Assembly: GCA_030445275.1 (NCBI GenBank) | Contig: JAUCSE010000088.1 | Location: 1 to 64,000 of the forward strand | From: Mucilaginibacter sp. | GTDB taxonomy: Bacteria; Bacteroidota; Bacteroidia; Sphingobacteriales; Sphingobacteriaceae | Reading direction: 5' to 3' | DNA: 64,000 bases | Shown here: positions 36,566 to 41,918 of the stretch, piece by piece | How the letters are laid out: the number at the start of each line of letters is the position of its first letter | How positions within the stretch are numbered: position 1 is the first letter of the stretch | Notes under the pieces: generated by a model | What the model saw: the letters and a program-made list of their open reading frames with translations, nothing else | The model's database searches: none | What the model was told of the DNA's origin: nothing | Program-made: the position numbers and the translations under genes

Positions 36566-37405
36566 TTACTTTTTGGCTATATTTTTTTTGTAGTCGGATG
36601 CTTTCATGCTCATTTGTTTCTTGAAGATCCGGTTAAAATGGCTTTGGTCGGAAAAACCAGTCAGGTAGGCGATTTCCGATAAGGAATAATCGGTAGTTTC
36701 CATCAGGGTCATGGCTTTTTCGATCCGCATTTTTCTGATGTAATCTCCAAAGGAAAGATTCTCAAAATACTTGGAAAACTCCCTTGACAGGTAAGCAGCG
36801 TTGATATCTAGTTCCTCGGATACCTGCTGTAAACTCAAGCTTATATTAGTATCAATTTGGTCCTGAATCATCTCCCTGATCTCCTTTGCCCATTTTGGTA
36901 TCTTTTTAGAACCTTTTTGTTCAAGGAACTTATTGAACAATTCCAGCCAAAGCTGCCCCACAGGTTCTTGTGTGTGCTTTTGCTGATATAGATACTTCGC
37001 CCAGGTATAGAGGCCATCATATATTTTCATACCCAGGTCCAACAATTCATGATCGTCTTTGATGTTTTGCGATAGTCCCAAAAAAACAGCTGATAATCCT
37101 GCCGCCTGCGGCGCAAAATCAAAACGATCGGTATCCGCTCCACGTACGATGGCTGCAATCCGGAACAACGCTTCGTCTTTTAAGTGATGCTTCTTTAGAA
37201 AATAGTCAAATGAACACTGGTCTTCATAATGGCTATATTCTACATCCGGTATATCAAAGGGAATCGCTTCTAATTCGTTCGCTTTGATCAACACCTGATC
37301 TAACGGTACATAAATGATCTCGCCTTCCGGATCAATAAACCTTTTGATCAACCAGGGACAGGCAATACGGTCTATTTTGGGACGTTCACGGGTGATCCAT
37401 TTCAT
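36566..37405 (-). CDS. ChrB C-terminal (chromate-resistance) domain fused to AraC-type HTH
   Basis: N-terminal RPKIDRIACPWLIKRFIDPEGEIIYVP...VRGADTDRFDFAPQAAGL (Chrome_Resist family pattern); C-terminal AraC HTH LSEIAYLTGFSDQSHFNRIFKKQMSMKASDYKK. Start at ATG 37405 (ORF opens at 37501). Confidence 0.88.
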   Translation of the reverse strand: MKWITRERPKIDRIACPWLIKRFIDPEGEIIYVPLDQVLIKANELEAIPFDIPDVEYSHYEDQCSFDYFLKKHHLKDEALFRIAAIVRGADTDRFDFAPQAAGLSAVFLGLSQNIKDDHELLDLGMKIYDGLYTWAKYLYQQKHTQEPVGQLWLELFNKFLEQKGSKKIPKWAKEIREMIQDQIDTNISLSLQQVSEELDINAAYLSREFSKYFENLSFGDYIRKMRIEKAMTLMETTDYSLSEIAYLTGFSDQSHFNRIFKKQMSMKASDYKKNIAKK

Positions 37406-37612
37406 AATGATCAAAGTTAAAAATCTAAAGCAGCATTGATGAAGGTCTATTGATAGTTGCCAAATCAGTACAGCAGATGAGCGGGCCATAAATACGTACA
37501 AAATCTGTAGGAAACTGGGAATTATGATCTTTTAAAATAATAGTTTAATTAATGATAGCTTATGAGGTAAAATCACCCGGAAACAGTAGGTCTTTACTAT
37601 CTTTGCTTTGGA

Positions 37613-38011
37613 ATGCTTAAAAGAATACTCTTCTCGTTTATGGCCTGTCTCTTTTTAGGGAGCAGTATTCTATTGCCATTGGGGGATTTTTCCCTAATGC
37701 GTGATCTTCCTGAAATGTACAGGAATTATTCCAGGATCACCACCCAGGAAGAGTTAGGTGTGATTGACTTTATCGGCGACTATCTATTGCATGGTAAAGA
37801 AATATTCGGTAACAACGAACATGATAAGGCGCAAGCCAATGGTAATAGTGTTCAATTTCAGCACCAGGCCAGTTCCTTAAACGTTGTCCTTCTGCATCAG
37901 CCTATCAGCTTGCTGTTTACACCTGAATCCCTGGTGTCACATCCGCTGTTCAGCCAGCCGTTCCGTACGTCCGATTATCGTGACGAACTGTTCAGACCGC
38001 CGCTTGCCTGA
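37613..38011 (+). CDS. Small secreted protein of unknown function ending in FRPPLA
   Basis: 132 aa, N-terminal hydrophobic segment MLKRILFSFMACLFLGSSILLPLGD; precedes a TBDR gene; C-terminus ...YRDELFRPPLA. Confidence 0.65.
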   Translation: MLKRILFSFMACLFLGSSILLPLGDFSLMRDLPEMYRNYSRITTQEELGVIDFIGDYLLHGKEIFGNNEHDKAQANGNSVQFQHQASSLNVVLLHQPISLLFTPESLVSHPLFSQPFRTSDYRDELFRPPLA

Positions 38012-38114
38012 TTTCAGTCCGCATCTTAAAATTTATTTTCTATTATTTCATCCGCCTGTCTTGCTATGCATTTCCATCAGCGTGGACATGGCTCTATTCA
38101 TATATCCATTATCC

Positions 38115-40295
38115 ATGAAAAGAATTTTCATGCTCGTTGCCTTTATGCTATTCTATGATGGCGTAATGGCCCAAAATACTTATAGAGCGAAAGTAATCAA
38201 TGATCAAACCAAAACGATACTTAAAGGTGCTACCGCCACCATTCCTGATTTAAAAAAGACCATTGCCGCTGATACAAGCGGATTGATCATCATACCTGAT
38301 ATCCCTAACGGCAAGTTTGAAATTGAAATTACTTATGTTGGTTTTGGCAAAAGTGAAAAGGTTTACAGCTTTCCATTGCAGCACCCGGATCAGCTCCTTG
38401 AAATCAGCCTGGAACCCTCCTCCGGCGAATTGGCCGAAGTAACCATCCAAACTACGCGTACCAACCAGAACCTGCGGGATGTCCCGACAAGAATAGAAGC
38501 ACTTCCTTTAGAAGAACTGAACGAAAAAAGTACCATGCGACCGGGTGATATCAAAATGCTGCTTGGTGAAACTACGGGTATCCATGTACAGCAAACTTCT
38601 GCGGTAAGCGGAACAGCCAGTTTCCGTATCCAGGGTTTGGACAGCCGCTATACCCAATTATTGCAGGATGGGATGCCGCTTTATTCCGGATTTTCTGGTA
38701 ATTTAAGTTTATTACAGATTAGCCCGCTCAATTTAAAACAGGTTGAATTTATCAAGGGATCAGCCTCTACCTTATATGGTGGTGGTGCCATTGCGGGGCT
38801 GGTTAATTTAATCAGCAAAACACCAGAGAAAACGCCTGAACTTACCCTATTAATGAATGGCACCAGTGCTAAAGGCACGGATGCAAGTGTTTATTACAGC
38901 CAGAAGTGGCAGCATGTCGGCACAACTATCTTTAGCTCCTATAACTACAATGGCGCTTATGATCCATCCCATACCGGGTTAAGTGCGATACCGCAAACCA
39001 ACCGTTTCAGTATCAATCCAAAGGTATTCCTATACATAGATGATCATAATACGGGTTGGTTCGGCGTAAATACTACTTATGAAAATCGTTTCGGTGGCGA
39101 TATGCAGGTAATTGATGGAAAAGCAGACAACATTCATCAATATTTTGAGCGCAATAAAACGTTCCGGTTTTCCACCCAATTATCTTTTACCCATAAAATT
39201 GATGAGGAAAGCCGGATCAACTTTAAAAACACCATCGGTTATTTTGACCGGCAATTAGCAGAGCCCGGATTTAACTTTAAAGGCAAACAGTTTTCATCCT
39301 TCAGCGAAGTGAATTATGTGCGCAACGGTGAAAAAGCTTCCTGGGTGGCCGGAGCCAATTTGATCACCGATCATTTTACGGCGCAGCCGCCACAAAACGC
39401 TTTAAGCTATAACCAAACCACTTTAGGCGCTTTTGTGCAGAATACGTTTAAAGCTACAGATTGGTTCTCGCTCGAAAGCGGGGTTCGGCTGGATAAAAAC
39501 ACACCATCGCCGGATAAACCATCCAGTGGTCTTTTTCTTCTGCCGAGGGTAAATGCGTTATTTACATTAAGCGACCATTTGACTAGTCGCATCGGCGGCG
39601 GCTTGGGTTATAAAATGCCAACTTTATTTAACGACCAGAGCGAACAGGATGGTTACCAGCATATCCAACCATTGAATATTGGGAATACCCAGGCGGAGCG
39701 ATCTTATGGATTAAATGGTGATCTGAATTACCGCAGTAAGCTTGGTGATGAAGCGGTTCTCAATATTAACCAATTGTTCTTTTATACGAAGGTAGACCTG
39801 CCTTTGATCCTGCAAAATAACAGCTTTGTAAATGCCGCTGGTCACCTGACCACACAAGGTGCGGAAACCAATATTAAACTGGTCATGGATGAACTGTTTT
39901 TTTACCTGGGATATACCTATACAGATACCAAACAGCATTTTAATGGCCAAAGCAGCATGCAGCCTTTAACGCCTAAAAACCAATTCAGTTTTGATGCCAC
40001 CTATGAGATCGAGGGTAGTTTCCGTTTTGGTGCTGAGAGCTTTTATACCGGACAGCAATTGTTAAGCGATGGCGCAACGGGAAAAGGATATGTAATTTTT
40101 GGTTTATTGGTTCAAAAAATGTGGAAACACCTGGATATTTTTGTCAATGCCGAGAACCTGACCGATCAAAGACAGACCCACTGGGGGAATATTTATACAG
40201 GGAGCATTACCAATCCAAACTTCAGGGACATTTACGCGCCATTGGATGGTGTGATCGTGAATGCCGGAATTAGAATCAAATTGCTCAACAAATAA
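38115..40295 (+). CDS. TonB-dependent receptor
   Basis: ATG 38115 MKRIFMLVAFMLFYDGVMAQ signal; plug domain (LRDVPTRIEALPLEELNEKSTMRPGDIKMLLGETTGIHVQQTSAVSGTASFRIQGLDSRYTQLLQDGMPLYSG) and barrel to INAGIRIKLLNK. Confidence 0.93.
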   Translation: MKRIFMLVAFMLFYDGVMAQNTYRAKVINDQTKTILKGATATIPDLKKTIAADTSGLIIIPDIPNGKFEIEITYVGFGKSEKVYSFPLQHPDQLLEISLEPSSGELAEVTIQTTRTNQNLRDVPTRIEALPLEELNEKSTMRPGDIKMLLGETTGIHVQQTSAVSGTASFRIQGLDSRYTQLLQDGMPLYSGFSGNLSLLQISPLNLKQVEFIKGSASTLYGGGAIAGLVNLISKTPEKTPELTLLMNGTSAKGTDASVYYSQKWQHVGTTIFSSYNYNGAYDPSHTGLSAIPQTNRFSINPKVFLYIDDHNTGWFGVNTTYENRFGGDMQVIDGKADNIHQYFERNKTFRFSTQLSFTHKIDEESRINFKNTIGYFDRQLAEPGFNFKGKQFSSFSEVNYVRNGEKASWVAGANLITDHFTAQPPQNALSYNQTTLGAFVQNTFKATDWFSLESGVRLDKNTPSPDKPSSGLFLLPRVNALFTLSDHLTSRIGGGLGYKMPTLFNDQSEQDGYQHIQPLNIGNTQAERSYGLNGDLNYRSKLGDEAVLNINQLFFYTKVDLPLILQNNSFVNAAGHLTTQGAETNIKLVMDELFFYLGYTYTDTKQHFNGQSSMQPLTPKNQFSFDATYEIEGSFRFGAESFYTGQQLLSDGATGKGYVIFGLLVQKMWKHLDIFVNAENLTDQRQTHWGNIYTGSITNPNFRDIYAPLDGVIVNAGIRIKLLNK

Positions 40296-40337: not shown

Positions 40338-40550
40338 ATGACAATGAACGAGCAAAATTATAAGATACTAAACCTGCTCGTTGCGGGGTTAGTATCCTTT
40401 ACGGATTTTGAGGCGCAAAATGGGCCGGGCAATCTAAGTTTGATGTTAATAGAAACAATCAGCTTGCTAAATGTCAAAGGCCGGATACTGTTGTCCGCTA
40501 CGGGCGAACAGCAGAACGAATGCAGCCACGATAACTGGCAAATCCGGTAA
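40338..40550 (+). CDS. Short hypothetical ORF
   Basis: 70 aa, co-directional downstream of the TBDR; no recognisable domain. Confidence 0.25.
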   Translation: MTMNEQNYKILNLLVAGLVSFTDFEAQNGPGNLSLMLIETISLLNVKGRILLSATGEQQNECSHDNWQIR

Positions 40551-40595: not shown

Positions 40596-41918
40596 TTATT
40601 TGGCGGCTTTCGTATAACCGATCAGTTTTCCGCCCGATCCCCTGATCAACTGCACCGCCCAGCTGGTGATCACCAAGGCCCCAATCAGGCCGCTGATGTC
40701 ATCGAGCCAGTACAATTGATAATACCAGCCGATACATAAAGCAATAATCGCGGTGAAGCTCGTCAGTCCGTCTGCCAACACATGCAGGTAGGCCGCCCGG
40801 ATATTGTCATCATGGTGATCATGGCCGTGATGGAGCATTTTAGCACAGATGGCATTGACGACCAATCCAATAACAGCGACGATGATCGCCTCGCTGAATT
40901 TGACGGAAGTGGGGTGGATCAACCGCCCAATGGATTCGATGGCCATGATCACTGCGATGAGTTGTAATACGATCGCGCTTGCAAAGCCGGAAAGGGATAA
41001 TACATTTTCTTTTTGAAAGGTATATTTCCCGGACCCGGCGTGCTTCCGGGTAAATAAATAGGCCAGCCAGGTCAGTCCAATGGCGAAAACATGGGTTGAC
41101 ATATGCCAGCCCTCGGTGGTCAGCGCCATGGAACGGCTATAATAACCGACCCCGATCTCCAGGATCATGGTAAACACCGTCAGATACACCACCCACTTAC
41201 TCGTATTCTCGTAATCATCGGCGTGTTCATGCGGGTCGACCTGCTCCTTGGCTGACGTTTTGTGATTTATAGCCTCGTTCCGGGATAACAGCTCCTGCAA
41301 GTCGTCGCAGTCTTTCGCTATCCATTCGGTGCAGACCTCCAAAGGGTTCCTTTTTGATACTGCTGTAATCGGCTTGACCGGATAACCGATATAGAAAAAG
41401 CCAAGCAACTTATCTTTGGCCTGAAGCCCAAAATAGGGTTTAGCCTCCTCAAAATAGGTGATCCCGGCAGTAGTCCAGTAAGCCCCCAGGCCGTAGGCGG
41501 TGACCGAAAGGAACATATTTTGCACGGCACAGGCTACCGCTGCTATTTCTTCGTTTTCCGGTAGTTTACCATTTTCGTCGCGGCGCATCCCAATGGATAT
41601 GACATGAGATGACATTAACGGGTACTCGCGCATTTTACGGTGCCGGTCTTCATTGTAGCTTTCCCCTGCGTACTGATGATAAAGGTTGGCCTGCAGATCG
41701 CCAAAATATTTCAGGCCTTCACCGGTAAATACCTTGAAACGCCAGGGTTCGGTCTGCTTATGATTAGGGGCACGTATGGCATTCTCCAAAATCTGCCGAA
41801 TAACTTCGTCGGGGATATGTTTTCCCCGGATATACTGATACGGGTAAATGCTGCGCCGGTGCTTGATGATGGCGTTAAGCTGTTCCGTATCATATTGCGC
41901 TTCAATCTCCGCTTCCAT
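40596..41918 (-). CDS. Nitroreductase-family domain fused to a CDF (DmeF-like) cation transporter membrane domain
   Basis: Residues about 10-195: nitroreductase pattern (IKHRRSIYPYQY..ILENAIRAPNHKQTEPWRFKVFTGE...AAVACAVQNMFLSVTAYGLGAYWTTAG). From about 235: CDF pattern (MALTTEGWHMSTHVFAIGLTWLAY...HHGHDHHDDNIRAAYLHVLADGLTSFTAIIAL...DDISGLIGALVITSWAVQLIRGSGGKLIG). One uninterrupted ORF. Confidence 0.88.
   Translation of the reverse strand: MEAEIEAQYDTEQLNAIIKHRRSIYPYQYIRGKHIPDEVIRQILENAIRAPNHKQTEPWRFKVFTGEGLKYFGDLQANLYHQYAGESYNEDRHRKMREYPLMSSHVISIGMRRDENGKLPENEEIAAVACAVQNMFLSVTAYGLGAYWTTAGITYFEEAKPYFGLQAKDKLLGFFYIGYPVKPITAVSKRNPLEVCTEWIAKDCDDLQELLSRNEAINHKTSAKEQVDPHEHADDYENTSKWVVYLTVFTMILEIGVGYYSRSMALTTEGWHMSTHVFAIGLTWLAYLFTRKHAGSGKYTFQKENVLSLSGFASAIVLQLIAVIMAIESIGRLIHPTSVKFSEAIIVAVIGLVVNAICAKMLHHGHDHHDDNIRAAYLHVLADGLTSFTAIIALCIGWYYQLYWLDDISGLIGALVITSWAVQLIRGSGGKLIGYTKAAK

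Follow-up and report, generated by a model that had tools for sequence, protein, structure and literature searches.

Why should a nitroreductase be built into a metal exporter? The window analysed here, a stretch of 64,000 nucleotides from the soil bacterium Mucilaginibacter sp., carries a minus-strand ORF (41918 to 40596) that stays open for 440 codons and joins a nitroreductase (NTR) domain, through a linker, to a CDF metal transporter domain. Nitroreductase was placed by Pfam at residues 18-179 (2.6e-21, 76.9 bits vs 23.5) and Cation_efflux at residues 244-430 (2.5e-29, 102.9 bits vs 26.6). The CDF half also matches TIGR01297 (144.8 vs 82.35), and it has the marks of the family, a six-TM Cation_efflux domain and the four-residue metal site of TM2 and TM5 (HMSTH, HVLAD). 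The NTR half has the nitroreductase domain and fold (Pfam; Foldseek to YdjA and 2i7h). Its flavin-type motifs RRS and RAPNHKQTEPW are invariant in the fusions, and R21 and R22 are almost invariant across 31 relatives; that the RRS motif serves FMN binding, and which residues contact FMN, we take from general knowledge of the nitroreductase family. The linker sequence HEHADDYENTSK was confirmed in the protein, which ends with KLIGYTKAAK, immediately past TM6. Translation in three frames of the 450 bases that follow the stop showed no remnant of the cytosolic C-terminal domain (CTD; e.g. DLHLW), which rules out a CTD missed through a frameshift. A preliminary description of one continuous 440-aa nitroreductase and CDF ORF, with a linker and the His loop HHGHDHHDD and without the CTD, is thus borne out by Pfam and by eight further loci. 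The coordinates given there (40596-41918) are correct, with the minor correction that the gene lies on the minus strand; linker and loop are both present, and no CTD is hidden downstream of the true ORF. Coordinates of the features are collected below.

Features of the NTR-CDF locus, in positions of the whole window
Feature	Position	Strand	Basis or remark
NTR-CDF fusion gene, 440 aa	40596..41918	-	ORF and Pfam; kept in 8 other loci
Nitroreductase domain, residues 18-179, YdjA-like	41382..41867	-	Pfam PF00881, YdjA PDB 3bm1/3bm2 sequence matches, fold match
RRS motif, residues 21-23, presumed FMN-binding	41850..41858	-	invariant in 8 aligned fusions
RAPNHKQTEPW motif, residues 49-59	41742..41774	-	invariant in fusions
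Linker, residues 204-237, with HEHADD	41208..41309	-	diverges faster than either domain
CDF transmembrane domain, residues 244-430, six helices, without CTD	40629..41189	-	Pfam PF01545 and structure model
TM2 metal-site motif HMSTH, residues 272-276	41091..41105	-	H-x3-H as in DmeF proteins
His-rich TM4-TM5 loop HHGHDHHDD, residues 363-371	40806..40832	-	sequence
TM5 metal-site motif HVLAD, residues 379-383	40770..40784	-	H-x3-D as in DmeF
Divergent AraC-family regulator, 282 aa	42000..42848	+	Pfam AraC_binding and HTH_18
TonB-dependent receptor	37962..40295	+	convergent with fusion gene; membership in the system uncertain

A structure model built from 31 sequences (mean pLDDT 81.6) gives the first part of the protein a nitroreductase fold and the second part six long helices, which run to residue 439; the linker between them is of low confidence. 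The NTR part was modelled at about 90 pLDDT with a YdjA-type fold, and its Foldseek matches, among them the minimal nitroreductases YdjA and 2i7h, agree with the PDB sequence search. The pTM of the model is 0.51, and the mutual placement of the NTR and CDF domains is not fixed by it. An earlier model built from 8 fusions alone reached a pLDDT of 46, which rose to 81.6 when standalone NTRs were added.

The same architecture is found at L001-L007 and L081 in Mucilaginibacter/Bacteroidetes genomes (65-87% identity, 438-445 aa), so that homologs are not always two separate proteins. Nine genomes in all carry the NTR-CDF fusion, and the C-terminal ends differ by few residues. The L081 locus belongs to a single-contig genome of 7.6 Mb (G335), of the same genus as the window. 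An assembly artefact is ruled out, because single-contig genomes encode the fusion both in this order (G335) and in the reverse (G1425). Between the fusions, synonymous sites are saturated or nearly so, whereas each half has a pN of 0.03-0.16 and the linker changes faster. In either half dN is much lower than dS; purifying selection has acted on both, and they have been kept as one protein. No conserved internal start codon was found in the linkers of the fusions, two of which (L003 and L005) have no start there at all; this rules out a CDF half that is translated by itself from within the ORF. The NTR-CDF fusion is a genuine single protein, not an assembly error. A search of plasmids for NTR-CDF fusions or close NTR relatives gave neither.

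The two halves also occur in the opposite order. CDF-NTR proteins, each in one ORF, are encoded at L010 in a Chitinophagaceae MAG (437 aa) and in G1425, a single-contig Chitinophagaceae genome (431 aa; domains confirmed by Pfam). A further candidate, G1066, was dropped; it is the same contig as L002 and has the order NTR-CDF. When both fusion orders were forced into one clade of the CDF tree, the cost was 35 log units (AU p=0.006), and with one reversed sequence the AU test still spoke against a single origin (p=0.015). In the NTR tree a single origin of both fusions was not rejected (AU p=0.38). With a common origin rejected in the CDF tree, the CDF half speaks for two independent joinings in opposite orders as the better interpretation. 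A six-helix CDF has its N- and C-terminus in the cytosol, and the NTR would therefore be cytosolic in either order. An accidental, neutral fusion of neighbouring genes without coupled function, or an assembly join, would fit the rarity of the NTR-CDF architecture, which was found in 5/401 genomes of a family sample (the window's own counted), all of them within the genus of the window. Its presence in nine genomes, one of them single-contig, the low dN relative to dS in both halves and the second, independent fusion make such an accident very improbable.

It had been proposed in the preliminary description that the reductase replaces the missing CTD and couples redox chemistry to efflux. The ancestry of the CDF half does not support the first part of this proposal. 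Eleven standalone CDF relatives from Bacteroidota genomes (212-296 aa) end at the same point as the fusion, and the CDF half, which likewise stops past TM6, clusters with such proteins. In the CDF tree, CTD-less CDFs and fusions together split from the CTD-bearing DmeF proteins (100/99), and a 98/94 branch joins the fusion clade to three standalone proteins, L103-L105. Because the CDF half branches from within a group of standalone CTD-less CDFs, loss of the CTD, as judged from this tree, predates the fusion. Replacement of the CTD by the NTR as the origin of the fusion is ruled out by the same tree. Several standalone CTD-less CDFs (L077, L104, L105, L109) have long His-rich N-terminal tails, and the HEHADD stretch of the linker is probably the remainder of such a tail. 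One CTD-less CDF, L106:8047-8937, has an extra N-terminal stretch of ~85 aa and sits among three genes resembling CobW/COG0523 GTPases.

The relatives of the NTR half lie beside metal pumps of another kind. In the NTR tree one clade (96/93) unites the close standalone NTRs with every fusion, the reversed one included. A heavy-metal P-type ATPase lies upstream on the same strand in 11/12 of the close standalone NTRs, compared with 0/16 distant NTRs that have one within 4 kb, a difference estimated at about 6e-7 by Fisher's test for close NTRs that were collected by similarity to the window protein and are all from Bacteroidota, so that wider sampling could add pump-free members. Several MAG contigs give only short neighbourhoods. 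At L008, the exception, no metal pump lies within 4 kb. The ATPase and NTR genes often overlap or nearly touch (start-stop distance of -4 to +2 bp in 6 of the 11 listed), and a CzcA/CusA-type RND pump is often the next gene after the pair. Ten of the 11 ATPases are P1B-4, 77-89% identical to the reference copy at L011; motif scans found SPC in them and, in the full-length copies, also HEGST (the P1B-4 signature). The eleventh, at L014, lacks SPC and is a P-type ATPase of another kind. In seven genomes that carry one or the other fusion, no close copy of the P1B-4 ATPase is present (best match at 33-43% identity, or none). Among the ATPase-NTR genomes checked, 4/5 have one, and the fifth, G1147, has the P-type ATPase of the other kind. 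It looks as if one exporter type had been exchanged for another while the reductase and the type of regulator stayed the same.

Other genes were noted around these operons. A small Cys-rich ORF of 84-90 aa lies upstream of the P1B-4 ATPase at L013:1405-1665, with relatives in L016, L019, L079 and L080; by eye it resembles a thioredoxin-like 2Fe-2S ferredoxin, and it has no Pfam or NCBIfam match. Directly downstream of NTR or CDF-NTR genes are ORFs with an MtrA-like corrinoid-protein domain and PterinBD-DUF4346 (L137:9552-10490, L017:5626-6564, L014:4121-4367). The value of these as proof of a cobalt link is weakened by two findings: the cobalt-binding His84 of archaeal MtrA (PMC4915002) aligns with Phe in the two full-length copies, and the protein is present in 1/12 genomes searched (G1425).

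The regulator is shared in part between the two arrangements. The AraC ORF of the window starts 81 bp from the fusion gene on the opposite strand. It is 72-79% identical to the AraC proteins beside the fusions L001, L002, L003 and L081. With the AraC at L004 it shares 50% identity, and with most of those next to P1B-4 ATPase-NTR operons 52-57%; near the L006 and L007 fusions an AraC of this type was not found. The metal-resistance setting that had been suggested for this locus, with a divergent AraC that is conserved, is supported. The ChrB neighbour that had been added to this argument is seen beside the closest relative, L001, but beside that one only, and is weak evidence. The ORF concerned (36569-37411, minus strand) combines a ChrB C-terminal domain (PF09828) with an AraC-type HTH, an unusual-looking regulator fusion, and its homolog lies at L001:8645-9343. 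A TonB receptor is near the fusion in L001, L006, L007 and L137 too. Between the fusion gene and this receptor in the window, a 70-aa ORF (40338-40550, plus strand) is probably a decayed gene, as it matches the first 48 aa of an ORF of 337 aa at L001:4380-5393. A 144-aa ORF just upstream of the fusion gene at L007 (L007:4534-4968) is Fur-family-like by eye (CxxC pairs), with no Pfam or NCBIfam match.

The reading that we favour, with some reserve, is that the NTR would be a flavin reductase dedicated to the export of redox-active divalent metal of the Co/Fe/Ni class and tethered to its transporter. The CDF half would act as a DmeF-like exporter of a divalent transition metal in the cytoplasmic membrane, the Co/Fe/Ni class being the most likely cargo, and the NTR half as an NAD(P)H-dependent FMN reductase carried on the cytosolic face of this exporter. 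The reductase would change the redox state of the metal being exported, or of a ligand bound to it, so that Fe or Co, for example, is kept divalent and exportable; alternatively, it would dispose of oxidised products of metal overload at the pump. NTR dimerisation would suit the CDF dimer, and the AraC protein would probably turn the fusion gene on under metal stress. The CDF and P1B-4 exporter types would share divalent cargo of the Co/Fe/Ni/Zn type. The coupling of redox chemistry to export, the second part of the earlier proposal, is strengthened by the existence of a second, reversed fusion and of P1B-4 ATPase-NTR operons. A more specific form is put forward tentatively: the reductase may reduce the metal or its ligand where the transporter opens to the cytosol, and thereby feed or gate export, as a separate subunit for P1B-4 ATPases and fused twice to CTD-less CDFs. 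P1B-4 and CDF pumps can also carry Zn, without redox chemistry, and Zn as sole cargo would count against this cargo-reducing version.

The same linkage could be attributed to stress defence alone, the NTR being a CinD-like, metal-induced reductase for quinone, nitro or peroxide stress that is co-expressed with the exporter, tethered to it by chance and never in touch with the metal. The association with unlike transporters (CDF, P1B-4 and another P-type ATPase) fits such a common stress. The copper-induced CinD nitroreductase defends against oxidative stress (Mermod 2010, as cited in PMC8941942), and control by Fur and/or PerR, where known, ties iron-exporting P1B4 pumps to peroxide stress (PMC7762939). 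Two separate covalent fusions and ATPase genes that overlap or nearly touch the NTR gene suggest, however, a link tighter than co-regulation, and we consider the stress explanation the less likely one. The earlier idea that an obligate NTR dimer takes over dimerisation and sensing from the CTD, and gates the transporter by the redox state of its flavin, is distinctly improbable. In its favour, the NTR would lie on the cytosolic side whichever the fusion order, and NTRs and CDFs are, as is generally known, both dimers. Yet CTD-less CDFs without an NTR occur in at least 11 genomes, so replacement is unneeded, and the same NTR clade also accompanies P-type ATPases. With the CTD already absent, and no such domain in the partner ATPases, the claim that the NTR replaces it is not supported. 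The conserved flavin-type motifs argue against a purely structural role.

Metal exporters are usually treated as moving an ion of given redox state. A reductase clade that is fused twice to a CDF, and otherwise found next to P1B-4 pumps, suggests that the export of metals includes a dedicated redox step. Neither such a step nor a nitroreductase-CDF fusion was found described in the literature, in a search that covered only a minority of subscription journals. The fusion is a new domain architecture made of known families. The reductase clade gives CTD-less CDFs a concrete partner that can be tested, and one gene with both functions is a simple genetic test bed.

Each part of the protein can be set beside a known system. 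The best family match of the CDF half is the Co(II)/Ni(II) exporter DmeF (NCBIfam NF033827), with which it shares the TM2 H-x3-H, the TM5 H-x3-D and the His-rich loop. DmeF exports Co (PMC11340326). The CDF half differs from it in scoring 220.1 against a cut-off of 250, in having no cytosolic CTD and in carrying an N-terminal NTR, and the fusion protein thus falls outside the DmeF equivalog. CTD-lacking CDFs are already known (Kolaj-Robin 2015, as cited in PMC6465983, where their role is called unclear); these likewise end past TM6 and are the closest kin of the CDF half, but the known ones are single-domain, whereas the window protein has an NTR attached and L106 another small N-terminal domain. 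The NTR half resembles YdjA, the E. coli minimal nitroreductase (PDB 3bm1), in fold and in sequence across the domain, at 28-29% identity in the fold match; YdjA, however, is standalone and soluble. CinD of Lactococcus lactis is also a nitroreductase linked to metal (copper) stress (PMC8941942), but it is NfsA-type, standalone and of another NTR branch, so that the likeness is functional only. Reduction of chromate by an FMN oxidoreductase is on record (PMC5684319). P1B4 pumps export Fe(II) and, where known, are under Fur and/or PerR control (PMC7762939). The P1B-4 ATPases (PfeT, FrvA, CtpD) are non-homologous to the CDF and are encoded separately from the NTR, unfused, yet they occupy the place of the CDF beside the same NTR clade.
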